A DNA stretch of 64,000 nt from an uncultured Bacteroidota bacterium (GTDB lineage Bacteria > Bacteroidota > Bacteroidia > Flavobacteriales > Flavobacteriaceae): positions 1 to 64,000 of the forward strand of contig CACKQW010000008.1 in assembly GCA_902602415.1 (NCBI GenBank), written 5' to 3'. The notes under the pieces were generated by a model. That model did no database searches, was not told where the DNA came from, and saw only the letters and a list, made by a program, of their open reading frames with translations. This document shows positions 8,524 through 24,496 of this stretch, piece after piece (position 1 is the first letter of the stretch; each line of letters opens with the position of its first letter). The translations under genes and the position numbers were made by a program.

Positions 8524-8534
8524 TTTTTTTACAT

Positions 8535-8568
8535 AAAAAAACCCTCCATTAGTTGAGGGTTTTTTTTT
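8535..8568 (+). terminator. Rho-independent terminator after the NTF2-like lipoprotein
   Basis: A 12-bp stem (AAAAAAACCCTC / GAGGGTTTTTTT) with an 8-nt loop runs into a T tract at 8560-8568. It stops plus-strand transcription just before the convergent tRNA-His gene. The A run on the other side would also let it work on the minus strand, behind the tRNA. Confidence 0.93.
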
Positions 8569-8569
8569 G

Positions 8570-8644: not shown

Positions 8645-8654
8645 ATATCTGGTG

Positions 8655-8684
8655 CAAATGTAATTTTTTTGTGTATGTATACAA
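8655..8684 (-). promoter_or_regulatory. Promoter of tRNA-His (TTG-N19-TACATTTG)
   Basis: On the minus strand TTG (8684-8682) is followed after 19 bp by TACATTTG (8662-8655), an exact TAnnTTTG box. It lies about 10 bp upstream of the tRNA 5' end. Confidence 0.8.
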
Positions 8685-8698
8685 AAAAGTATTTTAAA

Positions 8699-9421
8699 TT
8701 ATTTTAGCTCCGTAATACTATTAATCAACGGGAATCGCGATGCGATAAAACCCTCAGCAGCTTCCACTCCTACTAACCTTCCTAAATCTCTTGCTCTGTA
8801 TGTGATACTGTCTAAAAAATTTTTTGTAGAAATCGGTGTGTTATCATTTGATTCCTTAGGGTTGAAAAATTGTGATTTATAACAATTAATAAGAATTAAT
8901 TTTTTATTAAGATAATCTGAAATATTAACTAAAAAATCAGGTTCTAAATTTTTCCACTGAATGTAATGATACACATTCATAGGCCTCCAAACATCTTGAA
9001 GATTCCCTTCAAGACTAGTCTTAATTTTTTTTAAACCACTTAAAAAACAGGCATCTATCACAAGTTTTGCAGCTTTTTGATGATCTATATGTCTATCATC
9101 TGGGGCATTACATATAATTATTTCAGGTCTATATCTTCTGATTTTTGAAATCAGCTGAATTTGATTATCTCTATTATTTTCAAAAAAACAATCATCTAAA
9201 AATAAATTATCTCTGAATACTGCGCCCATCTCATTTTTAGATAATTCCGCCTCGTTTTTTCTGATTTCTTTATTGCCTCTTGTTCCAAGTTCACCTTGAG
9301 TAAGATCCAAAAGACCAACTTTCTTACCCATTTCAATCTCTTTTATTAATGTACCACCACAGCCTAATTCAATATCATCAGGATGTGCGCCAATTGCTAA
9401 AATATCTACCTTTTCACTCAT
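8699..9421 (-). CDS. bshB1: Bacillithiol biosynthesis deacetylase BshB1
   Basis: 240 residues, the size and sequence pattern of BshB1 in the PIG-L/LmbE family. The zinc site is AHPDD at 12-16 (His13, Asp16) and RHIDHQ at 110-115 (His114). The early GCGGTLIKEIEMGKKVGLLDLTQGELGTRG pattern is BshB1-typical. It removes the acetyl group from GlcNAc-malate to give glucosaminyl-malate in bacillithiol synthesis. Its ATG overlaps the end of the upstream metB-like gene by 4 bp, which couples low-molecular-weight thiol synthesis with cysteine/methionine metabolism. bshA and bshC are not in the window. Confidence 0.92.
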   Translation of the reverse strand: MSEKVDILAIGAHPDDIELGCGGTLIKEIEMGKKVGLLDLTQGELGTRGNKEIRKNEAELSKNEMGAVFRDNLFLDDCFFENNRDNQIQLISKIRRYRPEIIICNAPDDRHIDHQKAAKLVIDACFLSGLKKIKTSLEGNLQDVWRPMNVYHYIQWKNLEPDFLVNISDYLNKKLILINCYKSQFFNPKESNDNTPISTKNFLDSITYRARDLGRLVGVEAAEGFIASRFPLINSITELK

Positions 9422-10578
9422 TTTTTACATTTATGAATCGCTAAATTTATATCTTCAATTAAATCTTCAGGGTCTTCAATACCAACAGAAAACCTTATCA
9501 AGTTATCAACTATTCCTTGCTCAATTCTTTCCTTCTTAGAAAGTAATTGATGAGAAGTTTCAGCAGGAGATAACATGGTACTCTCTACTCCCGCAAAACT
9601 CATCGAAGGATTGATTAGTTCCAAGGAGGTTAAAAACTCTTTAGGACTTATATTTTTTTTAAGTTCAAATGAAATCACAGCTCCAAAACCATCCATCTGT
9701 TTACAGGCAATTGCATAGAATTCATTATTCTCAATCCCAGGAAAATGAACTTTTTCAATGCTAGAACTATCATTAAGAAATGAGCTTAATATTTTTGCAT
9801 TTTTTTGCTGCTCATAAAATCTAACTGTTAAAGTTTTCATACTTCTTTCAAGTAACCATGCAGTGTAATCACTTAGACTACCGCCAAACTTTTTTGAAAA
9901 ACTCCATATTTTATCAATTTTTTCCTTTGACGATGCAACTGCTCCTGCACAAATATCACTGTGTCCACCAAAATATTTAGTGGCACTGTGAATTACAATA
10001 TCAATTCCAAGTTTGTGAGGCTTTTGAATAATAGGAGTTGCAAAAGTATTATCGATGTAGGAAACTAAGCTGTGAGATTTAGATAAGTTCGCGATGTCAG
10101 AAATATCTACTATTTTCAAAAGAGGATTGGATGGTGTTTCAATGTAAATTGCTTTAGTGTTTTTTCTTATTTCCCTCTCAAAATCAGAAACTAACAAACC
10201 TTTGGTAAAAGAATATTCAATACCAAAGTTATTGAAATATTTTTCTATCAAACTTCTGGTACCTCCATATATATCATTCTGAACAACTATGTGATCTCCA
10301 GATGATAAGAATGCCATTAATGAAGAAGAAATAGCAGCCATTCCAGAACCAAGAATTAAAGCTTCCTCTGTTTCTTCTAATGAAGCAATTTTTTTTGATA
10401 AATACTCTTGATTAGGAGTTGAACTATATCTAGGGTATCTGTCTTTATCTTTATCAATATATTCATATGATGTTCCCATATATATTGGGGAAATGGAACC
10501 ACCAAATTGTTCATCAATAATTCTACCTACATGAGTACAAGTAGTACTCATGCCTTTATATTTTTTTTTCAGAGGCAT
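9418..10578 (-). CDS. metB: Cys/Met-metabolism PLP enzyme, probable cystathionine gamma-synthase
   Basis: 386 residues, the family length. The PLP-binding Lys201 lies in IHSATKYFGGHSD. Also present are LGSGMAAISSSLMAFLSSGD, NDIYGGTRSL, YIETPSNPL and the C-terminal SFAGVESTMLSPAETSH, which is replaced by a different loop in gamma-lyases. The likely reaction is joining an activated homoserine with cysteine to cystathionine, but cystathionine gamma-lyase or beta-lyase activity cannot be separated by eye. A downstream ATG (codon 10, MSTTCTHVG) is an alternative start. The gene begins 8 bp after ccsBA and overlaps bshB1. Confidence 0.82.
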   Translation of the reverse strand: MPLKKKYKGMSTTCTHVGRIIDEQFGGSISPIYMGTSYEYIDKDKDRYPRYSSTPNQEYLSKKIASLEETEEALILGSGMAAISSSLMAFLSSGDHIVVQNDIYGGTRSLIEKYFNNFGIEYSFTKGLLVSDFEREIRKNTKAIYIETPSNPLLKIVDISDIANLSKSHSLVSYIDNTFATPIIQKPHKLGIDIVIHSATKYFGGHSDICAGAVASSKEKIDKIWSFSKKFGGSLSDYTAWLLERSMKTLTVRFYEQQKNAKILSSFLNDSSSIEKVHFPGIENNEFYAIACKQMDGFGAVISFELKKNISPKEFLTSLELINPSMSFAGVESTMLSPAETSHQLLSKKERIEQGIVDNLIRFSVGIEDPEDLIEDINLAIHKCKK

Positions 10579-10586
10579 TCCGAAAT

Positions 10587-13500
10587 TTAAGCAATATTTT
10601 TCAAATACTTTTTATACTTGGGATAAGCAATTAGACTAAGTATAAAAATAATTAGGAGGGTAATAGAAATAAATACAATACTTATTTCTTGATCATCCTT
10701 TGCATAAGAGTGCAAACCAGCCAGGTAAAAATTTACTCCAAAATATGTCATGATTATAGATGCAAAAGACAATATAGATGCAACATTGAAGGTAAAGTTA
10801 CTTTTCAAACCAGGAATTATTCTCATGTGGATAACAAATGCATAAACCATAATACTTATCAGTGCCCAAGTCTCCTTTGGATCCCAGCCCCAATACCTTC
10901 CCCAACTTTCATTAGCCCACATCCCACCTAGAAAATTTCCAATTGTTAACATAACTAGTCCTACAGTCATAGACATCTCATTGATAAGTGAAAGCTCTTT
11001 GATATTTAAATCAATGACTTTGAAATTATTTTTGTTAATCAAAATCATTAAAATGAGAGAGACAAAACCTAATATCATGCTTATTGTAAATGGCCCATAA
11101 CTCCCAACAATAACCGCTACGTGTATCATTAGCCAATAACTATCCAATACAGGAACCAAATTGGCAATAGATGGATCCATCCAACTCCAATGAGCTATCA
11201 TGAGAATCATTGAAGTAACAAAAGTTGTTGATGCTAAAGTTAATTCACTTTTTCTTCCAAAATAAAGTCCAAATAACATAGTTGCCCAAGCAACATAAAT
11301 CATAGATTCGTATCCATCGCTCCAAGGAGCATGACCAGAAATATACCATCTTGAAATTAAACCAATCAAGTGAATCACAAAAAGAATGTATATGGCAGAA
11401 ATTGAAATTTTAATTAAGGTGTCTATTATTTTTTTTCTGTAAAAAATTTGAATAATTAGAAAAATAAACAAAAAGAAACTTGCATATAAATACCAACTAA
11501 ATAAAGATTTAAAAATATCATATTTGTTATAAAGTATTTCAGCATTTATTTTATTATCAGTAAGCATTACATCAGCACCATATTTTGACTGGGTATTTTT
11601 TATCGCTTTTAAAATTTCATCTGCATCAGTATAATCATTAGATTTTTTACCCTGATTTAAGAAATATAGATAAGTTTTAAATCCTGTATTGATAAAGTTT
11701 GAATAGAGAGAATCTGTGTTAATTTCTTTGAAAAATCTATTTTCACTTGGGGAAATCCACTCATTATTTTCATCATTTGGAACAGGGAAGATTTTTAGAT
11801 TAGATCCCTCAATTGAATTATATAATAGGTTAACCCTTTGATCAGTTTCTTTGAACTCTTTTTGAAATGCATTTGGAACAGCTGCTCTGTAAGACTCTTC
11901 AAGGTAAGGAGCTAGCTTATACTCTCCCCTTTCTGTGAAGAAATCAATAAGTGCAGCTCTTTTGATATTTTTGTCTAGTCCGATAATACTTCTTATTGAA
12001 TCTCCCTTTTTTGATTTTAGAAAAATTAAGGGAACATTATACCATAAAAGTGGACTTTCTTGCATGGATAAAAATACTTGATTAGCGTCAAATTCATTGT
12101 AGTGATCTTTTTTGCTCAGCTTTCTTAATAGCTCAGATGCATATGTATGTACAGGCATCATTCTACCTCCCAAATCTTGAATTACAATTTTTGCAAATTT
12201 ATCAGCCTGCTCTTTGTCAACAATATTATTTTTTAAAATGGAATCAATAGCTCCTAAATTTGTGTTTTCAGCACTGGTGTGCACGCCATAGGTTTGAGAA
12301 AATGAGCTAAAAGTGAAAAATAATAATGCTATTGATAAAATTTTAATCTTATTTTTTCGAGTTATATCTAATCTTTTTTTCAATGAGTCAAATCTTGTGA
12401 ATCTCGCAAAAAGTATTACCGTCAAACCAATATAAAGCAGTATATATCCAATATAGGTTAACAGAGTCCCCCAAAAGTCATGATTAACAGAAAGAATTGT
12501 TCCCTTTTCATCAGGATCAAAGGAAGCTTGAAAAAATCTATATCCCTTATAATTTAATATGTTGTTCATATAAATTCTGTAATCAAATGGGTTTTCATCA
12601 ATTACGGTTACCTCACTAGCAAAAGAAGAGTAGCTTTTTTCTGTCCCTGGGTACTTTTCAGCAATGAAATCATTTAATTTTATTGAAAATGGTAAATCAA
12701 ATACTTTGGAACCATACCTGATAGAAAACTCTTTTCCACCAATTTTAAAAGACTTGAAGGGATTATTTGTACCCTTTCCTCCAATCACTCGTATTTTTTT
12801 TGAATCATTAGTAGTTGAGATTAATAATTCAATTCCATCTTGATCGGACTTTAAAAGTTCAGATTTTTTTACCACATCAAATTTTCCCTTAATCACAGTT
12901 TTTGGAAATACTATTGATTGATCATTAATAATATATCTAGATCTTAAACTCAGGGGTTCTGTAGAACCAGCTTTCAAAAAACCTTGAGACATCGAGGCCA
13001 TGACTAAAAATTCAGCATCATAAGGTGAATTGATAAATAAGTTTAAGTTTTCATCATAAGTGATATTTACTGCACCTTCCACATAATTGTTCAATGTATA
13101 AAGGGTATTGTGAACATTTTCAACGGAGCCATCTTTTATAAAGTGGTTGTGCGGCATACCAGTTGCTGATTCCACAAGCTTTAAATAATATTCCCCATTT
13201 TCATCTTCAACTATATCTTCCTCTGCACCGCTAATAAAATCTGTCAGTTTGATCGTTATAGGTTCTCTGTTGTAATTTGTTGAGATATAAAAATCATTTT
13301 CCATCCTTGGTGAAAAGTCAACTTCTTTTTCAATTGGTAATCTCAAAAGTTGCCCATTCACGTCAACAGAATCTCCGTCTATGTTTATATTTACATATGT
13401 TTTTTCGGAAAGAAAAGCATTTTCAGTTGATCCTTCTCTAATACTCATTACACCCTCAAACCCAATATATCTGGTTATAAAAGCCCCAATTAGTATAAAG

Positions 13501-13766
13501 ATCCATGAAAAATGGAGTAAGAGCACTGGCCACTTCCTTTTATTTAATAAATTGTATTTGAAAATATTTCCAATAAAATTAATAACAAAAAACAGCATAA
13601 TTAACTCAAACCACCAAGCATTGTATACATAATTTCGAGTTAATGGTGTGGGTGAAGTTTCTTGGCCTGCATCAAGAAAGGTACCAACAGCCATTGCTAT
13701 AATAAACACGATAAACAGCAACCCGGTTAATCTGTTTGAAAAAACAATTTTTTTTATGAAATTCAT
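10587..13766 (-). CDS. ccsBA: Fused cytochrome c biogenesis protein CcsBA (ResB-CcsA)
   Basis: 1059 residues. The N-terminal half is ResB-like: membrane segments near 10-30, 50-70 and 80-100, then a large extracytoplasmic domain to about 430. A second periplasmic region (about 490-730) includes GGRMMPVHTYASELLRKL, a stretch conserved in Bacteroidetes proteins of this type. The C-terminal 330 residues are CcsA, with the Trp-rich haem-handling motif NESWGRYWGWDPKETW and several membrane helices. The system II fusion delivers haem to apocytochromes c outside the inner membrane. It is first of the ccsBA-metB-bshB1 run. A TAAATTTG box lies at 13790-13783 upstream. Confidence 0.93.
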   Translation of the reverse strand: MNFIKKIVFSNRLTGLLFIVFIIAMAVGTFLDAGQETSPTPLTRNYVYNAWWFELIMLFFVINFIGNIFKYNLLNKRKWPVLLLHFSWIFILIGAFITRYIGFEGVMSIREGSTENAFLSEKTYVNINIDGDSVDVNGQLLRLPIEKEVDFSPRMENDFYISTNYNREPITIKLTDFISGAEEDIVEDENGEYYLKLVESATGMPHNHFIKDGSVENVHNTLYTLNNYVEGAVNITYDENLNLFINSPYDAEFLVMASMSQGFLKAGSTEPLSLRSRYIINDQSIVFPKTVIKGKFDVVKKSELLKSDQDGIELLISTTNDSKKIRVIGGKGTNNPFKSFKIGGKEFSIRYGSKVFDLPFSIKLNDFIAEKYPGTEKSYSSFASEVTVIDENPFDYRIYMNNILNYKGYRFFQASFDPDEKGTILSVNHDFWGTLLTYIGYILLYIGLTVILFARFTRFDSLKKRLDITRKNKIKILSIALLFFTFSSFSQTYGVHTSAENTNLGAIDSILKNNIVDKEQADKFAKIVIQDLGGRMMPVHTYASELLRKLSKKDHYNEFDANQVFLSMQESPLLWYNVPLIFLKSKKGDSIRSIIGLDKNIKRAALIDFFTERGEYKLAPYLEESYRAAVPNAFQKEFKETDQRVNLLYNSIEGSNLKIFPVPNDENNEWISPSENRFFKEINTDSLYSNFINTGFKTYLYFLNQGKKSNDYTDADEILKAIKNTQSKYGADVMLTDNKINAEILYNKYDIFKSLFSWYLYASFFLFIFLIIQIFYRKKIIDTLIKISISAIYILFVIHLIGLISRWYISGHAPWSDGYESMIYVAWATMLFGLYFGRKSELTLASTTFVTSMILMIAHWSWMDPSIANLVPVLDSYWLMIHVAVIVGSYGPFTISMILGFVSLILMILINKNNFKVIDLNIKELSLINEMSMTVGLVMLTIGNFLGGMWANESWGRYWGWDPKETWALISIMVYAFVIHMRIIPGLKSNFTFNVASILSFASIIMTYFGVNFYLAGLHSYAKDDQEISIVFISITLLIIFILSLIAYPKYKKYLKNIA

Positions 13767-13782
13767 GAGAAATTTAGGATTA

Positions 13783-13790
13783 CAAATTTA
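13783..13790 (-). promoter_or_regulatory. -7 element upstream of ccsBA
   Basis: TAAATTTG on the minus strand matches TAnnTTTG and lies 17-24 bp before the ccsBA ATG. No TTG is found at the usual spacing, so only the -7 box is supported. Confidence 0.5.
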
Positions 13791-13859
13791 ATACCAAATT
13801 GAGATATATTAAACCTTATTTGACTAATAATTTTGAAAATTTTAGTAATTTTCTTTTTC

Positions 13860-14606
13860 ATGATTAATTTATCAATAATTGGGAGTGGTAATGTTGGAAA
13901 ACATTTTATAGCATTGGTGCAAAACTCTAAAGATTTAAATCTAATCCAATGGCTCTCTAGAAGTGAATCTTGCTATCAAAAAATTAAAACTACATCGGAT
14001 TTTAAAAATATTGAAAAAGCAGATGTCTATGTAATTTGTGTAAGTGATAGCTCAATACATGAAGTAAGCAAAACATTAAACCTTCACAATCAATTAATTG
14101 TTCATACTTCAGGAATAAATCACTTTAATATTTTATGTGATAATAATCGTCGCGGAGTCTTTTATCCTTTACAAACTTTTACAAAAGAAAATAAAACACG
14201 CGAATTAGAAATACCAATATGCATTGAATCTGAATATAATGAGGATATAAAGTTATTGATTGATTTATGTAAATACTTGAATTTAAAATACTATCAAGTT
14301 GATTATGAAAAAAGGAAAATCTTACATCTAGCAGCAGTTTTTAGTAATAATTTCTCAAATCATTTGTATTCCATAGCTTATAAAATTACTAAGAATAATA
14401 ATATTGATTTTGATATTTTGAAACCTCTAATACAAGAAACTGCGAATAAAATTTTACTTTTAGAACCTGCAAAAGCGCAAACAGGACCAGCTAGACGAGA
14501 TGATATGGTCACAATTAATAATCACTTAAAATTATTAAAGAATGATGATTATAGAAATATTTATAAAACTTTCACACAACTAATCAAAGATGAAAATAAA
14601 TTATAA
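13860..14606 (+). CDS. DUF2520 Rossmann-fold oxidoreductase-like protein
   Basis: The track starts at 13833, but the ATG at 13860 gives MINLSIIGSGNVGKHF, the expected beginning of the nucleotide-binding strand, so I use it (248 residues). The N-terminal half has the dinucleotide motif GSGNVG and the strand DVYVICVSDSSI. The C-terminal half carries the DUF2520 features GVFYPLQTF, HLAAVFSNNFSNHL and a conserved basic stretch (AQTGPARRDD). The fold is that of 6-phosphogluconate dehydrogenase relatives. Its substrate is unknown. It overlaps the kdsC-like gene by 17 bp, an arrangement common in Flavobacteriia. Confidence 0.85.
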   Translation: MINLSIIGSGNVGKHFIALVQNSKDLNLIQWLSRSESCYQKIKTTSDFKNIEKADVYVICVSDSSIHEVSKTLNLHNQLIVHTSGINHFNILCDNNRRGVFYPLQTFTKENKTRELEIPICIESEYNEDIKLLIDLCKYLNLKYYQVDYEKRKILHLAAVFSNNFSNHLYSIAYKITKNNNIDFDILKPLIQETANKILLLEPAKAQTGPARRDDMVTINNHLKLLKNDDYRNIYKTFTQLIKDENKL

Positions 14607-15093
14607 AGAAAAATTAAAAAAAATAAAAGCATTTGTTTTTGATGTTGATGGAGTACTAACAAATGGTGATTTATTGATAAGCGAATCTGGTGAACTATTA
14701 AGAACTATGAATGTTAAAGATGGTTTTGCAATGAAGTATGCAATTGACAATGAATACTTGATTACTATTATCTCGGGGGGTACAAATGAAGCTGTTAGAG
14801 AAAGATTAGTGAAATTAGGGATTAATCAAGTTTTTTTAGGTAGTGATAATAAAATTAAGGAGTTAGAAAAACTAGCTAAAGAAAATAATTTAAAAAAAGA
14901 AGAGATATTAGTAATGGGTGATGATATTCTCGATATTCCAATATTAAAAAATGCTGGAATATCTTGTTGTCCTCAAGATGCAGTTCAAGAGGTAAAAAAA
15001 ATATGTGACTATGTTTCTTTCAAAAAAGGAGGTTGTGGGGCGGTACGAGAGATTATTGAACAAGTAATGAAAATTCAGAAAAAATGGATTTAA
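14590..15093 (+). CDS. kdsC: KdsC-like HAD phosphatase (3-deoxy-D-manno-octulosonate 8-phosphate phosphatase)
   Basis: 167 residues, matching the cap-less C0-type HAD phosphatase KdsC. Motif I is FDVDGVLT with nucleophile Asp18 and acid/base Asp20. Motif II is IISGG, and motif III includes MGDDILDIPIL. The C-terminal KKGGCGAVREIIEQ matches the KdsC tail that reaches a neighbouring subunit. It would dephosphorylate Kdo-8-phosphate for lipopolysaccharide core synthesis. Related HAD phosphatases acting on other sugar phosphates are possible, since no kdsA or kdsB is near. Confidence 0.88.
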   Translation: MKINYKEKLKKIKAFVFDVDGVLTNGDLLISESGELLRTMNVKDGFAMKYAIDNEYLITIISGGTNEAVRERLVKLGINQVFLGSDNKIKELEKLAKENNLKKEEILVMGDDILDIPILKNAGISCCPQDAVQEVKKICDYVSFKKGGCGAVREIIEQVMKIQKKWI

Positions 15094-15185
15094 AAAAATC
15101 TAAATGGAAAAAAGAATTTTCTCTTCTATTGATTCTTAATTTTTTATATTTCCTGTTTTTTTGGTTCATCACTAACAATTACTGA
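15084..15185 (+). CDS. Possible 33-residue membrane peptide
   Basis: This ORF is too short for the track. It starts at an ATG that overlaps the kdsC stop by 10 bp and ends 2 bp before the TTG start of the symporter. The peptide has a basic N-terminus (MDLKKSKWKKEF), one strongly hydrophobic segment (LLLILNFLYFLFFWF) and a short polar tail, the layout of a single-pass membrane peptide. It also fills an otherwise unusual gap in a tight operon. I know no family for it. It could be a chance ORF. Confidence 0.4.
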   Translation: MDLKKSKWKKEFSLLLILNFLYFLFFWFITNNY

Positions 15186-15187
15186 AT

Positions 15188-16879
15188 TTGGTTGCGATTG
15201 ATTGGATAATATTGGTTCTTACACTACTGGTTATAATCGCCTATGGCACTTATAAATCTTTAGGCGCAAAAACATCTAATGAATATATAAAGGCAGGAAA
15301 TAGTGCCAAATGGTGGACTATTGGCCTTTCAGTGATGGCAACACAAGCAAGTGCCATAACTTTTTTATCCACACCGGGACAAGCATTTAATGATGGGATG
15401 GGGTTTGTGCAATTTTATTTTGGGTTACCCATAGCAGTAATTATTATATGTCTTGTTTTTATTCCAATTTACCACAAACTTAAAGTATACACTGCATATG
15501 AATTTTTGGAGAAGAGGTTTGATCAAAAAACAAGGACACTTACTGCATTACTTTTTTTAATTCAAAGAAGTTTATCTGCTGGGATTACAATTTTTGCTCC
15601 TGCAATAATACTTTCATCTGTTCTGGGATGGGATTTAATAATGGTAAATATTATAATCGGTAGTTTAGTGATTTTTTATACTGTTTCAGGTGGAACCAAG
15701 GCTGTAAATTATACTCAAAAGTATCAGATGATCATAATATTTTTTGGGTTATTTGCTATTTTATTTATAATATTCAAACTTCTTCCCGAGCAAATAAATT
15801 TTCAAAATGCATTGGAAATTGCATCAATTAGCGGAAAATTAGAAGTTTTAGATTTTTCCTTTGACTTAGAAAATAGATATACAGTTTGGAGTGGTATAAT
15901 TGGAGGTACATTTCTAATGCTCTCCTATTTTGGAACTGATCAAAGTCAGGTTCAAAGATATTTATCAGGAAAATCCCTCAGAGAAATGCAATTAGGAATG
16001 ATATTTAACGGGATATTAAAAGTGCCAATGCAATTTTTTATTTTATTCATTGGGGTAATGGTATTCATTTTTTATCAATTTAATCTATCACCCTTGAACT
16101 TTAATCCACAAGCAAACAAGGTTATTGTTGGGTCGTCATATGAAAATGAATACAAAAATTTAAAAAATAAATTAAATGAAATTCACTTTGAAAAAGTTAG
16201 TAAGATTAATGAAATTATTGAAGATAAAATTGAAAACAAAAAAATTGAAATTATCAAATTAGAAAAGGAGGAAATAAAAATTAGACAAAAAGCAAAATTA
16301 TTAATAGAAAAAGCAGGAGCTGAAAAATCAATAAAAGTAGAAACTAATGATAAAGATTATATTTTTATAAATTTTATTTTAAATCATCTTCCCAAGGGGT
16401 TGATTGGGCTTCTTATAGCTGTTATCCTTAGTGCAGCCATGTCATCAACATCAAGTGAAATAAATGCCTTAGCTACAACAACAACCATGGATCTCATCAA
16501 AAGGAACTACGCAAATATTGATGAAAAAAAAATAGTCTATTTGACTAAATTTTTTACATTATTGTGGGGAATTTGTGCAATTATTATTGCATGTGTTGCA
16601 TTCCTGGCTGATAACTTAATACAACTTGTAAACATTATCGGATCAATTTTTTACGGAAATGTACTCGGGATTTTTTTAATAGCTCTTTTTACTAAGAAAA
16701 TTCGATCTCTTTCAGTATTTACATCGGCAATAATCACTCAAATTGCAATAATTTATATTTGGTGGATAGATATCATTCCATTTCTTTGGCTAAATATTCT
16801 TGGTTGTTTTCTTGTAACTGCCCTGTCCGCTTTTATTGAACTTTTCTTGTCTATTTCAAATTTTTCCAGCTCTGAATAG
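15188..16879 (+). CDS. Sodium:solute symporter (SSS/SLC5 family)
   Basis: 563 residues with about 13 membrane segments. The N-terminus DWIILVLTLLVIIAYGTYKS and the SNEYIKAGNSAKWWTIGLSVMATQASAITFLSTPG region are typical of the family. The later AAMSSTSSEINALATTTTMDL supplies the conserved Ser/Thr residues near the sodium site. A charged, coiled-coil-like insertion (about 318-395: many Lys, Glu and Ile) sits between two membrane helices. The substrate is unknown (sugar, carboxylate or similar). The only fitting start is TTG at 15188, since the next ATG is about 50 codons in. The 3' end overlaps the convergent DUF2911 gene by 29 bp. Confidence 0.9.
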   Translation: MVAIDWIILVLTLLVIIAYGTYKSLGAKTSNEYIKAGNSAKWWTIGLSVMATQASAITFLSTPGQAFNDGMGFVQFYFGLPIAVIIICLVFIPIYHKLKVYTAYEFLEKRFDQKTRTLTALLFLIQRSLSAGITIFAPAIILSSVLGWDLIMVNIIIGSLVIFYTVSGGTKAVNYTQKYQMIIIFFGLFAILFIIFKLLPEQINFQNALEIASISGKLEVLDFSFDLENRYTVWSGIIGGTFLMLSYFGTDQSQVQRYLSGKSLREMQLGMIFNGILKVPMQFFILFIGVMVFIFYQFNLSPLNFNPQANKVIVGSSYENEYKNLKNKLNEIHFEKVSKINEIIEDKIENKKIEIIKLEKEEIKIRQKAKLLIEKAGAEKSIKVETNDKDYIFINFILNHLPKGLIGLLIAVILSAAMSSTSSEINALATTTTMDLIKRNYANIDEKKIVYLTKFFTLLWGICAIIIACVAFLADNLIQLVNIIGSIFYGNVLGIFLIALFTKKIRSLSVFTSAIITQIAIIYIWWIDIIPFLWLNILGCFLVTALSAFIELFLSISNFSSSE

Positions 16880-17705
16880 AAGCTTCGTTCATTTTAATAT
16901 AATTTTCATTTCCTGATTTTTTTGCCATTTTTAATGATTTTTTTGCAACTGAAATAGCTTTTTTAAATAATTTATTTTCTGCTAAAATCAAAGAATATTG
17001 CCTCAATTGCCAAAATCTTGGATTTTCATTAGAATTCATAGCTAATTCCATGTATTCTAATGCTTTTTTTGAATCAATTTTTTGATCATTCATGAATACT
17101 GCAGCCTTGTAATAATCTGAAAATGTCGGCTTATTATTTAAAACCTCAGAAATCTTCAACATAACATTTTTAGTAGTTGGTACATTAATCCGAACTGGAA
17201 CGTAGGTATTATCCCATAATATTGCCATAACTGCAGCATCATTACTTAAAAAATCAAAAGATATTTGCAGAGTCTCTGCTTTTATAGACTCGGGTAAATT
17301 ATATGAATCAACTCTAGTTTTTAAAACAACTTTGTTTTCATCCCAATTTCTTGGAACACCCCAAACATCAGTTTCAGCATAAAAAATGATATCCCAATAA
17401 TTTGTATTTGGAATTGTGTACAATGAATAAGTACCCGCTTTTAAGGTGGCTGAGTTAATTAATACATCGTCTGAAAAGGAGATTTTTGTACTTTCATCAG
17501 CCCCAGTTCTCCAAATTTTGTCATAGGGCACTAAAGAACCAAAGATGTTTCTATTTTTTACAGAAGGTCTGGAATACTCAACACTAATTTCTGTCAAACC
17601 AACCGTTTGAAATAATTTTGATTTTGGACTTGCAGCAGGGATTTCCAGCTGTGCCATTACGGTGCTGAATGACATAAATAGAACAAAAGTGAATATGCGT
17701 TTCAT
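16851..17705 (-). CDS. DUF2911-domain exported protein
   Basis: 284 residues. A clear signal peptide (MKRIFTFVLFMSFSTVMAQ) precedes the DUF2911 domain with its hallmark EVEYSRP-like segment (ISVEYSRPSVKNRNIFG), then YDKIWRTGADEST and AGTYSLYTIPN. The C-terminal 90 residues are helical, TPR-like repeats (ALEYMELAMNSNE, KAISVAKKSLKMAKKSG). It is probably periplasmic. The biochemical function of DUF2911 is not established. It is divergent from the photolyase island and convergent with the symporter. Confidence 0.87.
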   Translation of the reverse strand: MKRIFTFVLFMSFSTVMAQLEIPAASPKSKLFQTVGLTEISVEYSRPSVKNRNIFGSLVPYDKIWRTGADESTKISFSDDVLINSATLKAGTYSLYTIPNTNYWDIIFYAETDVWGVPRNWDENKVVLKTRVDSYNLPESIKAETLQISFDFLSNDAAVMAILWDNTYVPVRINVPTTKNVMLKISEVLNNKPTFSDYYKAAVFMNDQKIDSKKALEYMELAMNSNENPRFWQLRQYSLILAENKLFKKAISVAKKSLKMAKKSGNENYIKMNEASIQSWKNLK

Positions 17706-17721: not shown

Positions 17722-17729
17722 TAGTTTTG
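17722..17729 (+). promoter_or_regulatory. Possible -7 element of the photolyase island
   Basis: TAGTTTTG fits TAnnTTTG and lies 24-31 bp before the aquaporin-like ATG, the first gene of the 11-gene run. No TTG is at the expected distance upstream. It sits beside the promoter of the divergent DUF2911 gene, so the two may compete. Confidence 0.45.
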
Positions 17730-17732: not shown

Positions 17733-17761
17733 CAAATTTAATGAAATAATATCATGAACAA
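17733..17761 (-). promoter_or_regulatory. Promoter of the DUF2911 gene (TTG-N18-TAAATTTG)
   Basis: On the minus strand TTG (17761-17759) precedes TAAATTTG (17740-17733) by 18 bp, about 28 bp before the start at 17705. The TTG falls inside the first codons of the divergent aquaporin-like gene. Confidence 0.65.
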
Positions 17762-18377
17762 GTATATAACAGAATTTATAGGAACTTTTTTTCTAGTATT
17801 AATTATTGGAATTACAAATAATCCAATTGCGATTGGAATAGGTCTTTCAGTTCTCGTCTACATGGGTGCTCATATATCTGGAGCTCACTACAATCCCGTT
17901 GTATCATTAGCTATGTTTATTCAAAAAGAAATTAATAAATCGGAGCTACTATATTATATAATTTCTCAACTGATAGCATCCCTTGCTGCAACCTTTGTTG
18001 TACAAAATTTTGATATTAATTCGTTTGAAGTTATTGCTAATACAAGTAACAGAGCTTCATTTCTGTTGGCTGAAATACTATTTACTTTTCTGCTTGTTTT
18101 TGTAATATTAAATGTCGCTTTGCATCCAAAACTGAAAAATAATCAATTTTATGGATTCGCAATTGGATTAACAGTAGCTGCTGGCGCGTTGACGGTTGGT
18201 GATATTTCTGGAGCAGTTTTTAATCCAGCTGTTAGTTTTGGTCCTTCATTTTTTGCGATAGTAGATCCAAATGAACTTTCATCATCTGTTCAGTCTAATG
18301 ATTTTTTTATCTACTATTTAATTGCGACATTAATTGGCTCATTAATTGCTAGTTATCTCTTCAAAAGAGTGAATTAA
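17754..18377 (+). CDS. MIP/aquaporin-family channel with altered selectivity residue
   Basis: 207 residues with six predicted membrane segments and two half-helix motifs. The first is SGAHYNPVVSLA (NPV rather than NPA), the second SGAVFNPAVSFGP. In classical aquaporins the second reads NPARSFGP, and that Arg forms the narrow selectivity filter; here it is Val. The channel probably passes water or a small neutral solute, but the specificity is uncertain. It is the first gene of the photolyase island, and its stop overlaps the flavin reductase start (TAATG), so it belongs to that operon. Confidence 0.82.
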   Translation: MNKYITEFIGTFFLVLIIGITNNPIAIGIGLSVLVYMGAHISGAHYNPVVSLAMFIQKEINKSELLYYIISQLIASLAATFVVQNFDINSFEVIANTSNRASFLLAEILFTFLLVFVILNVALHPKLKNNQFYGFAIGLTVAAGALTVGDISGAVFNPAVSFGPSFFAIVDPNELSSSVQSNDFFIYYLIATLIGSLIASYLFKRVN

Positions 18378-18997
18378 TGTTTTTTGATGAACACCAAATT
18401 GAAAAGCTAGAAAAGATATATCGGGTAAACCTAATGAATTCTTGTTCTGGTTACAAATCAGCAAATTTAATTGGAACAATTTCTAATAATGGCCAATATA
18501 ATCTTGCAGTTTTTAGTTCGATTGTTCATTTGGGCTCTAATCCACCCCTATTAGGATTTTTTCTTAGACCAACAGAGCTTGTACCTAGACATACATACTT
18601 AAATATTAAAGAGAAGGAATTTTACACAATAAATTCAATTGATAAACTGAATTTTGAAAAAGCACACCACACATCTGCTAAATACCCTAGAGATATTAGT
18701 GAATTTGATATTACAGGAATAAAACCAAAAATTATCACCGATTTCCCCGCACCTTTTGTTGATTCATCAAGTATTAAAATTGGAATGAAGTTTGTGGAAG
18801 AGATAAAAATCAAACATAACAGATCAAGGTTAATAGTTGGTAAAATAGTTAGTTTGGATGTAAAGGATGAAATGCTAAATAATGATGGTTTTATAGACCT
18901 TTATAAATCCCAAATAGCAACAATTAGCGGTTGTGATGGTTATTCATTTCCTGTAAAAAATGAAAGACAAGGTTACCAAAAGCCACGCAAAATCTAA
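18377..18997 (+). CDS. Flavin reductase-like FMN-binding protein
   Basis: 206 residues with the split-barrel flavin reductase pattern: [41 protein letters not shown] near the N-terminus, where flavin is bound, then [17 protein letters not shown] and [15 protein letters not shown]. The family reduces FMN/FAD with NAD(P)H or serves as a flavin-binding oxidoreductase. In this operon it could supply or recycle reduced flavin for the two photolyase-type proteins, but that is inference. It overlaps the DUF2256 gene by 38 bp. Confidence 0.82.
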
Positions 18998-19127
18998 TAA
19001 AAGCTATTTACCCACAAAAGAGTGTCCAGTTTGTAATCGTCCATTTACTTGGAGAAAAAAATGGAAAAGAAATTGGGAAAATGTAATCTACTGTTCAAAA
19101 AAATGTAAACAAATTGGAAGAGGTTAA
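18960..19127 (+). CDS. DUF2256 zinc-ribbon-like small protein
   Basis: This 55-residue gene is missing from the ORF track because of its length. After a basic N-terminus it carries the DUF2256 signature: [14 protein letters not shown], then YCSKKC. The cysteines at 22, 25, 45 and 49 form a CxxC/CxxxC metal site, probably zinc. It overlaps the flavin reductase gene by 38 bp and the photolyase-related gene by 14 bp, in different frames. DUF2256 is often found beside, or fused to, photolyase/cryptochrome genes, which fits this context. The molecular role is unknown. Confidence 0.9.
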
Positions 19128-20592
19128 CATAATTTTCCCTAATCAGCTTTTTGAAGAGAATCCACTTTTCAAATTTGAAGTGCCAACCTTTTTAGTTGAG
19201 GAAACTCTTTTTTTCAAGGAATTTAATTTTCACAAACAGAAAATATTTTTCCATAGGCTTAGCATGAAAAAATATGAAAAATATTGTAAAAATTTCTTAT
19301 CAGAAGTGTTTTACGTTGAGTCACATAAAAAAGATGCAAATATTGTAGAATTAATTACCAATCTCAAGTTGAAAGGATTAAAAAAAATTAACCTAATTGA
19401 ATTTGATGACAATTGGTTGAAAAAAAGATTAGTTAGTATTTCTGAGGGTTTAACTTTAAATTTTGCTGAAACACCACAATTTCTAAATTCAAATGATCAA
19501 AATAGTGTTTTTTTTAAAAATGATAAAGTAAAATTTTTTCAAACAAGCTTTTATAAATCACAACGAAAGAGAACGGATATTTTGATGATTAATGACAAAC
19601 CCTCAGGTGGAAAATGGACATATGATGATGAAAACAGAAAAAAATATCCTGCTAAAAAAACCCCACCTGACATTAAATTTCCAGAAATTAGTAATTCAAG
19701 TCTTTATGATGATTCAGTGAAATATGTTAATGAGAATTTTAAAGATAATATTGGAAAGTTAAACGAAAAGTTCAGATATCCAACAGATTACAAGGAAGCA
19801 AAAGTATGGTTTGAAAATTTTTTAAATGAAAGATTCCTTGAATTTGGAGATTATGAAGATGCCATAGTAAAAGAATTTTCCATTTTAAACCACAGCTTAA
19901 TATCACCCCTACTCAACTCAGGTTTATTGACACCCAAGTATGTAGTTGAAAGAATTTTAACTTTTGCGGACCAAAAAAATATTCCTATCAATTCAAATGA
20001 AGGAATCATCAGACAAATTATAGGATGGAGAGAATTTATCAGAGGAATATATGTCGCAAAGGGCTCGTATGAAAGGACACGAAATTTTTGGAATTTTAAA
20101 AAAGAAATGCCAGAATCATTTTACACTGGAAATACCGGAATTGAACCGGTTGATGATTGTATTAGAAAAGTATTAGATACTGGTTATTTACATCATATTG
20201 AAAGACTAATGATAATTGGTAATTTTATGTTTTTATGTGAAATAAAGCCAGATGATGTTTACAGTTGGTTTATGGAGCTATTTATTGATTCCTATGATTG
20301 GGTAATGGTACCTAATGTTTATGGAATGAGTCAGTATGCGGATGGTGGGTTGATGTCTACAAAGCCATACATAAGTAGCAGTAATTATATTATGAAAATG
20401 AGTAATTACAAAAAGGCTGATTGGCAACAAATATGGGACAGTCTCTACTGGCGATTTATTTCTAATAATGCAGATTTTTTTAAGTCTAACCCCAGGCTAT
20501 CAATGATGGTTATTACACTTAACAGAATGAATAAAGAAAAACTAAACAATTATCATAAAATAGCAAATGATTTTTTAAATAATCTGAAATGA
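19114..20592 (+). CDS. Cryptochrome/photolyase-related protein (DPRP/FeS-BCP-like, lacking Fe-S cysteines)
   Basis: 492 residues. The N-terminal alpha/beta antenna-type domain opens with [15 protein letters not shown]. The FAD-binding helical domain has [43 protein letters not shown] and the very conserved [18 protein letters not shown]. Relatives such as PhrB of Agrobacterium carry a [4Fe-4S] cluster bound partly by a Cys-rich loop after this motif. Here that loop reads [17 protein letters not shown] and the last 100 or so residues have no Cys, so three of four ligands are missing. The function is therefore (6-4) repair, light sensing or something derived. TTG at 19114 is the only fitting start. 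Confidence 0.88.
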
Positions 20593-20993
20593 TTTTTAAT
20601 TCCACATATACTGACCCAGAAAAAGATCTTGAGGTAGATAAGATTATTGGTAAAAAATTCAATTTAATCGAATCAATTCTCATGGGTGGAATAGGATCAA
20701 AAAGACTTATTTTAGAAAGTTTCAGTGTAAAGTTTAAAAACCATATTAAAGAAGGGTTTGATTTAAATTATGTAAACATAGAACTACGAAAAAAAGGAAT
20801 TAAGGTTTTTATTACAAACAGGCAAAAGCGAATTACATGGGTTATCCCCTACTTCAGATTGGTAATTTATAAAACTCCTTTTTTTTCAATTCACAGTAAT
20901 GGAAGTTTTTTGAAGTTTAGCAATAAACTAAATCACAAAGAAAATTTGTCGTTTTTTAGAAAGCTAGCAAAAATAAAATCTAATCAATTTTAA
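20589..20993 (+). CDS. Unknown small protein of the photolyase island
   Basis: 134 residues, no family recognised. The first 60 residues are mixed; the middle (about 60-115) alternates hydrophobic and polar residues (VNIELRKKGIKVFITNR, ITWVIPYFRLVIYK, FFSIHSNGSFLKF), suggesting a small beta-barrel of PH-like type. The C-terminus is a basic helix. There is no signal peptide or membrane helix. It overlaps the photolyase-related gene as ATGA and lies 4 bp before the TIGR03643 gene, so its role is probably tied to this operon. Confidence 0.75.
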   Translation: MIFNSTYTDPEKDLEVDKIIGKKFNLIESILMGGIGSKRLILESFSVKFKNHIKEGFDLNYVNIELRKKGIKVFITNRQKRITWVIPYFRLVIYKTPFFSIHSNGSFLKFSNKLNHKENLSFFRKLAKIKSNQF

Positions 20994-20997
20994 TCAA

Positions 20998-21279
20998 ATG
21001 TTCAGAAAATTTAATGGCACAGATATTGATAGAATCATAGAAATGGCATGGGAAGATAGAACTACTTTTGATGCTATTTACCAGAACTTCAGATTAAGTG
21101 AATCTGAAGTTATCCAATTAATGAGAAAAAGTTTAAAACCATCAAGTTTTAGACTTTGGAGAAAAAGGGTTACTGGTAGAAAAACAAAACATTTAAAAAA
21201 AAGAGACTTTACTGAAGGTAGATTTAAATGTAGCAGACAAAAGCATATTAGTTTAAACAAAATTAGTAAACGCAAATGA
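20998..21279 (+). CDS. TIGR03643-family protein (DUF2805-like)
   Basis: 93 residues. The sequence DIDRIIEMAWEDRTTFDAI, then LSESEVIQLMRKSLKPSSFRLWRKRVTGRKTKH is the TIGR03643 signature. The middle looks like a helix-turn-helix with basic recognition-type residues, and the C-terminal 30 residues are strongly basic, so nucleic-acid binding is plausible but unproven. The family tends to occur with photolyase/cryptochrome genes. It overlaps the next gene by 4 bp. Confidence 0.87.
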   Translation: MFRKFNGTDIDRIIEMAWEDRTTFDAIYQNFRLSESEVIQLMRKSLKPSSFRLWRKRVTGRKTKHLKKRDFTEGRFKCSRQKHISLNKISKRK

Positions 21280-21497
21280 AAATTATTGATAAGGCAATAG
21301 AGTTTGAAAATAGAAAGCACACGTACAAAAGCACCAATGAAAAAATTGTTGCATCTAGAGAAGTTAAAAACTTGATTTTAGACTTAAACGAAGTATACAA
21401 AAAAAATAAAGATTCCGAGATTATGGAAATGATGAAACGGCTGACTGCAATAAAAAGAAAGGTTGAGAAAAGATTAAAAGGTAGACCACAAGTATAA
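21276..21497 (+). CDS. Unknown 73-residue helical protein
   Basis: A charged, all-helical small protein (IDKAIEFENRKHTYKS, ASREVKNLILDLNEVYKK, MKRLTAIKRKVEKRLKG). There is no Cys, signal or membrane segment. It overlaps the TIGR03643 stop as ATGA and is followed with no gap by the SDR gene. No known family. Its small size, helix content and basic end recall an adaptor or nucleic-acid-associated protein, but that is speculation. The 84-residue minus-strand ORF over it is a shadow. Confidence 0.72.
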   Translation: MKIIDKAIEFENRKHTYKSTNEKIVASREVKNLILDLNEVYKKNKDSEIMEMMKRLTAIKRKVEKRLKGRPQV

Positions 21498-22181
21498 ATG
21501 AAAAATATTGTAATCATTGGTGGAACTAAAGGAATTGGAAAAGCTATTGTAGCTTCTCTTGTTACTAATAATAATATAACTTGCTTAAGTAGAAATAAAT
21601 CTGAATTTTCTCATGACAACTACAGTCATATCAAATACAATTCTTTAGAAGACGATTTACCAGAAATTGAATTTGTTGACTGTTTGATATACTGTCCTGG
21701 CTCAATCAATTTAAAACCCATCACAAACTTAAGTATAGATGACTTCAGAAACGATTTTGAAATTAATGTCATAGGCGCTGTTAAATGTATCAAAAAGTAT
21801 TTGCCACAGCTTAAAAACGGTGTAAACCCATCGATTTTGCTTTTCAGTACTGTAGCTACTAAATTAGGAATGCCATATCACGCTTCTGTTTCCGTCGCGA
21901 AATCTGGTATTGATGGACTTGTCAAAACTTTAGGTGCTGAATTATCCCCTAAAATTAGAATTAATGCAATTGCCCCTACTATTACGGATACAGAATTAGC
22001 ATCAAAGATTTTAAGAAATGAAAAAGTTATTGAGAATATGATAGAAAGACATCCACTAAAAAAAATACTTTCTGCAGATGAAGTGTCCAAAATGGCTGAA
22101 TTTTTAATCTCTGATAAATCATCATCAATCTCTGGTCAGATTTTCAATATGGACGCAGGGATAGTTTCCTTTAAAAGTTAA
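21498..22181 (+). CDS. Divergent short-chain dehydrogenase/reductase
   Basis: 227 residues with the SDR fold: the nucleotide motif GGTKGIG at 8-14, the strand DCLIYCPGSI, NVIGAVKCIKKYLP, and the end GQIFNMDAG. The usual Tyr-x-x-x-Lys is not intact: the region reads MPYHASVSVAK, so the position four before the Lys is Val and the only nearby Tyr is eight before it. Catalysis may use other residues or be lost. It lies directly between two photolyase-associated small genes and a glutathione peroxidase. The substrate is unknown. Confidence 0.85.
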   Translation: MKNIVIIGGTKGIGKAIVASLVTNNNITCLSRNKSEFSHDNYSHIKYNSLEDDLPEIEFVDCLIYCPGSINLKPITNLSIDDFRNDFEINVIGAVKCIKKYLPQLKNGVNPSILLFSTVATKLGMPYHASVSVAKSGIDGLVKTLGAELSPKIRINAIAPTITDTELASKILRNEKVIENMIERHPLKKILSADEVSKMAEFLISDKSSSISGQIFNMDAGIVSFKS

Positions 22182-22185
22182 TTAT

Positions 22186-22749
22186 ATGGGTAAGATTGTT
22201 AGTTTATTCTTGATAATGATTTTAACCTACACAGGTTTAAAACTTAGTAATACTTCTACAAATAACATTCTTAACATGAAATCTATTTATGAAATTCCAC
22301 TGAATGATATTAATGGTAAACCCCTTGACCTTAGTCAATTTAAGGGTAAATATATTTTATTTGTAAACGTGGCTTCCAAGTGTGGGTTTACAAAACAGTA
22401 CAGAGAATTACAGCAACTTTATGTTAATAATCAAGAAAAAATAGTTGTTATTGGAGTGCCCTGTAACCAATTTGGAAACCAAGAACCTGGAAATGAAAAG
22501 CAAATTTCTCTTTTTTGTTCAGAAAAATATAATGTTACTTTTCCTATGACTGAAAAATTAAAAGTAAGAGGTTCTGAACAGCACATGTTATATGCATGGC
22601 TAACTTCAAAAGAATTAAATGGTAGTAAAAATTCAAGTGTTAAATGGAATTTTCAAAAATACTTGGTTGGTCCTGAAGGTAATTTAGTGGATTATTGGTA
22701 TTCTCTTACCAGCCCCTCAAGCTCGAAAATTACCAACTATTTAAGATGA
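22186..22749 (+). CDS. Glutathione peroxidase-family thiol peroxidase
   Basis: 187 residues. A hydrophobic N-terminus (about 4-20) suggests a membrane anchor or signal. The peroxidase core begins at about 34 with the peroxidatic Cys66 in NVASKCGFT, Gln95 in PCNQFGNQEPG and the WNF motif (VKWNFQKYLV) later, so the catalytic triad is present in its Cys (not selenocysteine) form. It reduces hydroperoxides, in bacteria usually with thioredoxin. In this operon it suggests protection against light-generated peroxides. It overlaps the SRPBCC start by 4 bp. Confidence 0.92.
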   Translation: MGKIVSLFLIMILTYTGLKLSNTSTNNILNMKSIYEIPLNDINGKPLDLSQFKGKYILFVNVASKCGFTKQYRELQQLYVNNQEKIVVIGVPCNQFGNQEPGNEKQISLFCSEKYNVTFPMTEKLKVRGSEQHMLYAWLTSKELNGSKNSSVKWNFQKYLVGPEGNLVDYWYSLTSPSSSKITNYLR

Positions 22750-23210
22750 AAATTTATTCTTTAAACAGGTCTATCAGTATTCCTGTAAGCAAGCCGGAAG
22801 CTTGGAATTTTTTCAGTAACCCTCACAACCTCTCCGTTATTACACCAAAATCCATGAATTTTAAGGTATTAAAAGTAGATTCAGATAAAATTTATGACGG
22901 CCAGCATATTCATTATAAAGTTTCTCCATTATTTGGAATAAACATGAATTGGACTTCACTGATTTCAGGGGTAGTTGAACAAAAATGTTTTACTGATACA
23001 CAAGTAAATGGACCTTACAAATATTGGCATCACAAACATATTTTTGAAAAAATTAGTGGAGGTATTAAAATAATAGATAAAGTTAACTATGGGATCCCAT
23101 TTGGTCCCATCGGCGATATTTTCCATCCCATTTTAGTTAAAAATAAACTAGATTATATTTTTGGGTACAGAAATTCAAAAATTAAAGAAATATTTGGTGA
23201 AATAAAATGA
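22746..23210 (+). CDS. SRPBCC-family ligand-binding protein
   Basis: I use the ATG at 22746 rather than the track start at 22695, because MKIYSLNRSISIPVSKPEAW opens the expected first strand and ATG overlaps the gpx stop as ATGA. This gives 154 residues. The START/Bet v1-like pattern is WNFFSNPHNLSVITPKSMNF, then a GQHIHYKV-WTSLISG barrel and a long C-terminal helix (IFHPILVKNKLDYIFGYRNSKIKEIF). Such proteins are frequent in photolyase-linked gene clusters. The ligand is unknown. It overlaps the photolyase start by 4 bp. Confidence 0.85.
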   Translation: MKIYSLNRSISIPVSKPEAWNFFSNPHNLSVITPKSMNFKVLKVDSDKIYDGQHIHYKVSPLFGINMNWTSLISGVVEQKCFTDTQVNGPYKYWHHKHIFEKISGGIKIIDKVNYGIPFGPIGDIFHPILVKNKLDYIFGYRNSKIKEIFGEIK

Positions 23211-24496
23211 AAACATTTTCAATTTTTTGGTTTAGAAGAGATATTAGATTAGAAGATAATATTGGTTTATCTCACGCTACAAAATCAAAATACCCTGTTA
23301 TACCAATATTTATTTTTGATGAAAAAATAACTTTAAATCTTCCAAAAAATGATACGAGAATTAATTTTATATATAAAAATTTAAAAAAATTAGACGATTT
23401 ACTTCGAGAAAAATTTAATTCTAAACTTCAGGTATTCAAAGGAGATCCTATTGATATAATTAATAGAATAGTTAAAGAATATAATGTTAAAGAGGTTTAC
23501 ACAAATCATGACTATGAACCATATGCAATTAAAAGGGATAGTTTAGTTTGTAAAAATCTTAAGAATAATAAAATACCTTTCTATACTTTTAAAGATCAAG
23601 TTATTTTTGAAAAAAATGAAGTAATTAAAGACAACGGAACACCATATATAGTTTTTACTCCTTATATGCGCAAATGGAAAGAGACCCTCAAGAAAAATTA
23701 TTTAGTTTTAGAACATAGTGAATTGTCTAATAATTTTCATAACCTTAATAAGTATAATCTCAAGGAAATAAGTGAATATGGATTTGAAAAAAACTTCTCA
23801 GAAGTACTTAATTTTGATGTTTCAAAAAAAATAATTGAAGAGTATGAAAAGAAGAGAAATTTCCCGTCGCTAAATTCAACATCTAAAATTGGTCCTTTCC
23901 TAAGGTTTGGAGTAATTAGTATTCGATCCCTTGTTAAATATGTTTTAAAATTTGATAATGATACATTTTTAAATGAGCTAATTTGGAGAGAATTTTTTAT
24001 GCAAATTCTTTTTCATTTCCCAAATAGCTCAACTAATAGTTTTAAATCGAAGTATGACAATATAAAATGGACTAATGATAAAAAGATGTTTGAAGCATGG
24101 AAAAACGGAAAAACTGGTTTTCCTATTGTTGATGCTGGTATGAATGAATTAAATAAAACTGGCTTCATGCATAATAGAGTCAGAATGATAACTTCAAGTT
24201 TTCTTTGTAAACAATTACTTATTGATTGGAGATGGGGTGAAAAATATTTTGCATTAAAACTAAATGATTATGAAATGTCAAGCAATGTTGGAAACTGGCA
24301 ATGGGCATCAGGATCAGGCGTTGATGCGGCTCCTTATTTTAGGATTTTTAATCCTCAAACCCAGATTGAGAAATTTGACAAAAACTATGATTATATTAAC
24401 AATTGGGTAGATCTAAAAAATAATTATCCGAAAGAAATTGTTAATCATAAAGAAGCAAGAGAAAATTGCCTGAAAAGATATAAGATGTATGTCTAA
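23207..24496 (+). CDS. phrB: Deoxyribodipyrimidine photolyase (class I CPD type)
   Basis: 429 residues. The antenna domain opens with FWFRRDIRLEDNIGL. The FAD domain has LNELIWREFFMQIL, TGFPIVDAGMNELNKTGFMHNR, and NWQWASGSGVDAAPYFRIFNP; Trp residues in these motifs fit the electron-transfer chain and the lesion pocket. It would use blue light to split cyclobutane pyrimidine dimers in DNA. It is slightly shorter than the E. coli enzyme (about 470 residues). It is the last gene of the island and ends one base before the convergent murA stop. Confidence 0.93.
   Translation: MKTFSIFWFRRDIRLEDNIGLSHATKSKYPVIPIFIFDEKITLNLPKNDTRINFIYKNLKKLDDLLREKFNSKLQVFKGDPIDIINRIVKEYNVKEVYTNHDYEPYAIKRDSLVCKNLKNNKIPFYTFKDQVIFEKNEVIKDNGTPYIVFTPYMRKWKETLKKNYLVLEHSELSNNFHNLNKYNLKEISEYGFEKNFSEVLNFDVSKKIIEEYEKKRNFPSLNSTSKIGPFLRFGVISIRSLVKYVLKFDNDTFLNELIWREFFMQILFHFPNSSTNSFKSKYDNIKWTNDKKMFEAWKNGKTGFPIVDAGMNELNKTGFMHNRVRMITSSFLCKQLLIDWRWGEKYFALKLNDYEMSSNVGNWQWASGSGVDAAPYFRIFNPQTQIEKFDKNYDYINNWVDLKNNYPKEIVNHKEARENCLKRYKMYV

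Follow-up and report, generated by a model that had tools for sequence, protein, structure and literature searches.

We report here that DUF2256 and DUF2805 (the latter also known as TIGR03643), two families of small uncharacterised proteins, follow the prokaryotic 6-4-type photolyase DPRP across genomes, and that genes for all three stand together in an eleven-gene run (17754-24496, + strand) in a stretch of 64,000 nucleotides (nt) from an uncultured member of the Flavobacteriaceae (contig CACKQW010000008.1, positions 1 to 64,000; hereafter the window, with 64 gene calls). We propose a dedicated partnership of DUF2256 and DUF2805 with DPRP within a photoprotection operon, in which the two would serve 6-4 photorepair as accessories at the DNA level, a reading to which we assign a probability of roughly 45%. 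It is based on their co-occurrence with DPRP, their zinc-finger-like and helix-turn-helix (HTH)-like character, and the exclusion of iron-sulfur (Fe-S) cluster and antenna loading as their function. The tie of DUF2256 and, in Bacteroidota, of DUF2805 to a 6-4-type photolyase appears to be new: a literature search for the two families together with photolyase retrieved no paper linking them, and the accessible parts of the literature on DUF2256 alone and on DUF2805 alone contain no photolyase connection. If true, our proposal would provide the first functional lead for these two widespread families.

Two small families that follow DPRP

Occurrences were counted in 158 Flavobacteriales genomes and in 297 Bacteroidota genomes, with Caulobacter, S. 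elongatus, Haloferax and E. coli as controls. The DUF2805 counts exclude a weaker paralogue, and all proximity counts are lower bounds, given that many genomes are fragmented and that the photolyase-domain matches are those listed. Among the Flavobacteriales, 62 genomes have DPRP, 61 have DUF2256 and 59 have both, versus 24 expected (Fisher p 5e-37, genomes being treated as independent); DUF2805 occurs in 68 genomes, 59 of them with DPRP. The corresponding Bacteroidota figures are 100 genomes with DPRP, 92 with DUF2256 and 85 with both, DUF2805 being present in 76, of which 70 have DPRP. Since such p-values treat related genomes as independent, a better argument comes from a contrast within a single genus (g37), where nine genomes possess DPRP, DUF2256 and DUF2805 and eight possess none of them, just the weaker DUF2805 paralogue. 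This paralogue, of 97 amino acids (aa), is not tied to DPRP (9 of 18 with DPRP) and occurs in the DPRP-less g37 genomes G060, G062, G136, G153, G157, G165, G181 and G189, and in others. The control genomes of Caulobacter and S. elongatus both carry DPRP and DUF2256. Two Flavobacteriales, G113 and G178, have DUF2256 without a detected DPRP, the latter with DUF2805 beside it, possibly owing to recent DPRP loss or to an assembly gap.

Shared ecology and joint transfer among light-exposed aerobes could also produce such a distribution. A comparison of gene neighbourhoods on annotated plasmids showed DPRP, DUF2256 and TIGR03643 next to one another on two Acinetobacter plasmids, and DPRP together with DUF2256 on plasmids of Rhizobium and Novosphingobium; the triad thus exists on mobilizable elements, and the all-or-none pattern within a genus could likewise come from joint transfer. 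We nevertheless regard this explanation as improbable. Outside the Flavobacteriales, 49 of the 66 co-present DUF2256-DPRP pairs of the Bacteroidota sample are not neighbours, and therefore linkage does not create the pattern. Photolyase-domain genes in general (PF03441, in at least 103 of the 158 Flavobacteriales) display no such one-to-one pattern. In 57 of the 60 genomes with a DPRP sequence that was inspected, DUF2256 and DUF2805 are both present, and each of the other three (G134, G177 and G191) lacks not one partner but both. On one of the Acinetobacter plasmids (L186, 3486-7234), genes for NAD(+) diphosphatase and a lipocalin come next after TIGR03643, DUF2256 and DPRP.

The original prediction, which saw in the run one light and oxidative stress operon with small proteins assisting the photolyases, expected these small genes to lie near photolyase genes in other genomes. 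The outcome is mixed: in the 158 Flavobacteriales, at least 21 of 69 DUF2805 places are within 6 kb of a photolyase, so that most are not near one, and at least 12 of 27 copies of U134, a protein of 134 aa also encoded in the run, have a photolyase-type gene within 6 kb. The distance of DUF2805 does not refute a photolyase link because the co-occurrence of DUF2256 and DUF2805 with DPRP is near-perfect.

Missing Fe-S ligands and the proposed role of the partners

The DPRP gene of the window (19114..20592, 492 aa) has both the DPRP N-domain (PF04244, 152 bits against a cut-off of 22.1) and the FAD domain (PF03441, 32.9 bits against 27) that define the wider group of prokaryotic 6-4 photolyases, and its nearest solved structures are 6-4 photolyases, including PhrB (4dja/5kcm). 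It lacks the four cysteines that ligate the [4Fe-4S] cluster in the FeS-BCP enzymes: the C-x2-C...C loop is replaced by another stretch of 16 residues, and C350 of PhrB aligns to P345. In the same alignment H365/H366, which we take to be the HH pair near the active site, are kept as H360/H361; of the presumed electron-transfer residues, W390 is kept (W385) while W342 and Y391 are changed (Y337 and F386).

The original prediction was right that this enzyme is Fe-S-less and that the short-chain dehydrogenase/reductase (SDR)-fold protein of the run (21498..22181, 227 aa; PF13561, E 1e-34) lacks the catalytic tyrosine. In the window and in the relatives compared, the SDR has the lysine but not the tyrosine four residues earlier (ASVSVAK/ASVATSK in relatives), and so departs from the classical Ser-Tyr-x3-Lys pattern. 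As relatives share both features, they are traits of the clade, and the idea of an altered cofactor set particular to this island has to be abandoned. In a first comparison 84 of 85 DPRP homologues were Fe-S-less, a biased count because most had been picked for their similarity to the window. Among 60 DPRPs from Flavobacteriales genomes chosen independently of that similarity, 29 have the Fe-S loop, 29 do not and two are undecided. Fe-S-less prokaryotic 6-4 photolyases have moreover been published as subgroup M, which includes PromaPL of P. marinus (PMC9178010). The window enzyme resembles this subgroup in its PF04244-type architecture without the four cysteines; it differs in being encoded alongside the ten further genes of the run.

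The existence of both enzyme types constrains the function of the two partners, which are both present with 28 of 29 Fe-S-bearing and 27 of 29 Fe-S-less DPRPs. Being equally present with the two enzyme types, they are not Fe-S assembly factors, a role that we reject. Their tight pairing with one type of enzyme would also fit maturation factors that load another cofactor or an antenna into DPRP, and on a Pantoea soli plasmid (L122, 2858-4147) a DUF2256 gene with no DPRP nearby has, at a distance of about 0.7 kb, a gene for 6,7-dimethyl-8-ribityllumazine synthase, the enzyme that makes the antenna used by several 6-4 photolyases. However, the S. elongatus enzyme, SePhrB, uses 8-hydroxydeazaflavin (8-HDF) instead of the usual lumazine (PMC9178010), and DUF2256 is present in this species as well as in Caulobacter, which makes the loading of one particular antenna unlikely. 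Furthermore, when made in E. coli in the absence of the partners, SePhrB still obtains FAD, 8-HDF and its Fe-S cluster (PMC9178010). We therefore hold maturation to be a very remote explanation.

We interpret both partners as DNA-binding proteins that assist 6-4 photorepair. DUF2256 (18960..19127, 55 aa) is zinc-finger-like, scores 71.2 bits with PF10013 (cut-off 25), well within the curated model, and keeps the cysteine motifs CPVC and YCSKKC; the family is placed in the TRASH clan (PMC4047054). DUF2805 (20998..21279, 93 aa) likewise exceeds its curated cut-offs (TIGR03643, 121 bits against 66.55; Pfam, 120.9 against 22.5) and is predicted to have a helical core with weak matches to HTH domains, followed by a basic C-terminal tail of uncertain structure. 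In the mechanism that we propose, these two small basic proteins would help DPRP to locate damaged DNA, or to keep hold of it, amid the crowding inside the cell. DPRP would act as an Fe-S-less 6-4 photolyase and the product of the last gene as a cyclobutane pyrimidine dimer (CPD) photolyase, while the flavin-reductase-like protein may keep flavin reduced and the peroxidase, SRPBCC, PH-like (U134) and SDR-fold proteins probably handle oxidised lipids or redox damage. A more general version, in which 6-4 photorepair in many bacteria consists of DPRP plus DNA-binding DUF2256 and DUF2805, independently of the Fe-S cluster, and in which the operon is a compact set adding U134 and the 73-aa protein U73, seems to us unlikely.

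Several observations weigh against DUF2256 and DUF2805 as dedicated partners acting on DNA. The Fisher p-values disregard the phylogenetic relatedness of the genomes. DUF2805 was not found in the DPRP-bearing control genomes and is missing from 30 of the 100 Bacteroidota genomes with DPRP; DUF2256 was not found in Haloferax, which has DPRP, and occurs without DPRP in seven of the 297 Bacteroidota genomes. For several proteobacterial plasmid copies of DUF2256 and of TIGR03643, the surroundings contain no DPRP. The DUF2805 model reaches a predicted local distance difference test score (pLDDT) of only 75, with HTH matches at E > 1, and the 6-4 activity of the window DPRP is assigned from its family. 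Finally, both in vitro and inside E. coli, SePhrB is able to repair 6-4 lesions (PMC9178010), and neither DUF2256 nor DUF2805 had a match in the E. coli control genome. Consequently the reaction does not strictly require the partners, which lie outside the basic chemistry and serve either to make repair more effective in the native cell or in regulation or delivery. In the cited work the enzymes were studied without DUF2256 and DUF2805; if our proposal is true, part of the mechanism may escape assays of that kind.

The chief alternative to an accessory function on DNA is a regulatory role. DUF2805 would bind photolyase promoters and DUF2256, by means of its cysteine site, would sense light or the redox state; the two would travel with DPRP because they control it. 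The HTH-like core and basic tail of DUF2805 and the cysteine site of DUF2256 are in agreement with such a role, which would account for the activity of SePhrB in E. coli and is compatible with unlinked genes; in addition, Pfam and NCBIfam reveal no known family of regulators encoded by the run. We nonetheless find it somewhat doubtful: longer relatives of the operon that contain both small genes also have a TetR gene at their head, and DUF2256 and DUF2805 are often distant from DPRP and from other photolyases, whereas dedicated regulators usually adjoin their targets.

The eleven genes and their longer relatives

All eleven open reading frames were recovered on the + strand as predicted, with overlaps or near-contacts, and profile scans with Pfam and NCBIfam upheld most of the family labels first proposed (Flavin_Reduct, DUF2256, DPRP with FAD_binding_7, TIGR03643, SDR, GSHPx and photolyase). 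The SRPBCC-like protein (22746..23210, 154 aa) has just a sub-threshold Polyketide_cyc match (E 0.086), and the first gene (17754..18377, 207 aa) is called aquaporin-like from its sequence, a putative membrane protein with two NP-type motifs. The second gene (18377..18997, 206 aa) encodes a flavin-reductase-like split-barrel protein (PF01613, E 1e-15; nearest structure 3fge, E 1e-50), and the ninth (22186..22749, 187 aa) a protein of the glutathione-peroxidase family (PF00255, E 6.5e-38) with an N-terminal hydrophobic stretch. The last gene (23207..24496, 429 aa; PF00875/PF03441) encodes a class I-like CPD photolyase whose nearest structures are the CPD photolyases 2e0i, 1owl and 1tez. It keeps the class I lesion-binding residues in the motifs ELIWREF, MHNRVRM and NWQW; we take these residues to be E274, W277, N341, R342, M345 and W384 in E. 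coli numbering.

U134 (20589..20993) and U73 (21276..21497), the two proteins predicted to be unknowns, indeed have no family match in Pfam or NCBIfam, nor does U134 match PDB sequences. The AlphaFold2 model of U134 (pLDDT 92) has helices, a seven-strand barrel and a C-terminal helix, and its top Foldseek matches are mostly PH/PTB domains (all with E > 1e-3 and template modelling scores of about 0.3-0.5), from which a PH-like fold is tentatively predicted. U134 occurs in 27 of the 158 Flavobacteriales genomes, 23 of which have DPRP (10.6 expected). U73, a charged protein with a 24-member alignment, is found in eight of these genomes, seven of them with U134, and at least 8 of its 12 copies have DUF2805 no more than 2 kb away.

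With the SRPBCC start revised to the ATG at 22746, the intergenic gaps of the run are between -38 and +4 nt. No other run in the window with gaps no larger than 10 nt is as long, the second longest comprising three genes, but spacing alone is weak evidence for an operon because 25 of the 42 co-directional pairs (~60%) are equally close. In so compact a genome the conserved gene order is the stronger argument for a single unit: nine complete congeneric loci (L033-L037 and L039-L042; L038, interrupted by a contig end, is outside these nine) share all eleven genes and their order. The eleven genes thus probably form one photoprotection operon, in a marine flavobacterium with a streamlined genome, and would be co-transcribed. 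Conserved order, together with DUF2256 and DUF2805 tracking DPRP, speaks for the predicted photorepair and oxidative stress unit with photolyase-linked small proteins.

This operon probably represents a reduced form of a longer photolyase operon found in the flavobacterial loci L050, L065 (Paucihalobacter ruber) and L112, at about 2400-16300, and with a similar set in L081. The longer operon begins with genes for TetR, an ABC1 kinase, flavin reductase, an NAD-binding/DUF2867 protein, DUF2256, photolyase, DPRP and photolyase, and continues with those for U134, DUF2805, GTP cyclohydrolase I (FolE), U73, SDR, peroxidase, TspO, SRPBCC and photolyase (names of the extra genes checked in L050), which makes three PF00875/PF03441-type photolyases besides DPRP. 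The block common to L050, L065 and L112 is U134-DUF2805-(FolE)-U73-SDR-GPx-(TspO)-SRPBCC-photolyase, with SRPBCC orthologues in the corresponding place in the congeners and in L050, L065, L081 and L112. Relative to the longer unit, the window operon is without TetR, ABC1, the DUF2867 protein, two photolyases, FolE and TspO, and has in addition the aquaporin, whose homologues take first position in this genus only among the loci compared. From this comparison the direction of change looks like a series of losses plus the gain of an aquaporin; in the DPRP tree the window-type and longer-operon groups are separate clades whose relative order the tree does not resolve. Many Flavobacteriaceae have an alternative order, DUF2805-photolyase(s)-flavin reductase-DUF2256-DPRP, often with U134 after it.

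A DUF2452 gene stands just 5' of DUF2805 in L053 (4603-5007, the single case tested), and a gene of similar size occupies that spot in many Flavobacteriaceae and is absent from the window operon. The genome of the window has a second photolyase-family gene on another contig (486 aa; G000, contig C18, about 1405-2865, locus L002), and homologues of similar length reside within the photolyase cluster of other Flavobacteriaceae. L109, whose contig bears the label Rhodobacteraceae, is nearly identical to the flavobacterial L107 in the DPRP tree and has probably been misbinned.

Known photoprotection clusters and the promoter region

Photoprotection clusters of this class are already known, and the island is a streamlined example; it also offers a compact natural gene set for expression. 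A photolyase cluster is enriched in proteorhodopsin-bearing marine Flavobacteriia (PMC5932025); in the accessible parts of that study DUF2256 and TIGR03643 are not named, DUF and unknown groups having been set aside in its functional annotation, and neither their pairing with DPRP nor the eleven-gene streamlined form is described. The light-induced operons of Pseudomonas controlled by LitR (PplR/PmlR) contain photolyase, SDR, folE, cryB and small unknowns (PMC9758184). They resemble the window operon in photolyase, SDR and small unknowns, FolE being shared with the longer flavobacterial operon, but differ in gene order, and the window's eleven genes have no LitR/LOV gene and have GPx, SRPBCC, U134 and U73 in addition. 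The RpoE-ChrR photo-oxidative stress regulon of Vibrio and Rhodobacter (PMC11976125, PMC7074977) includes, in Vibrio, the photolyase cry1, induced by blue light under RpoE-ChrR, whereas no extracytoplasmic function (ECF) sigma factor or ChrR is encoded among the eleven genes.

In agreement with the original prediction, no LitR/CarH-type (MerR-B12) regulator was detected by Pfam and NCBIfam, nor was an ECF/anti-sigma gene, in a search that covered the eleven genes. A search of 21 congeners with the TetR_C_23 profile gave zero matches, though no positive control responded either. Sigma-70-like and terminator-like sites were in no excess over shuffled sequences. A weak candidate promoter, TAGTTTTG (17722..17729, + strand), matches the Bacteroidota -7 element TAnnTTTG 24 nt 5' of the first start codon; the match is found in the window, L033 and L034 and not in the other eight congeners, and was rejected as a shared promoter motif because it is confined to these three closest genomes. 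On the opposite strand, a divergent gene (16851-17705), presumably DUF2911-like, occupies the same place in the congeners and, being separated from the operon by 48 nt, shares one short promoter region with it.

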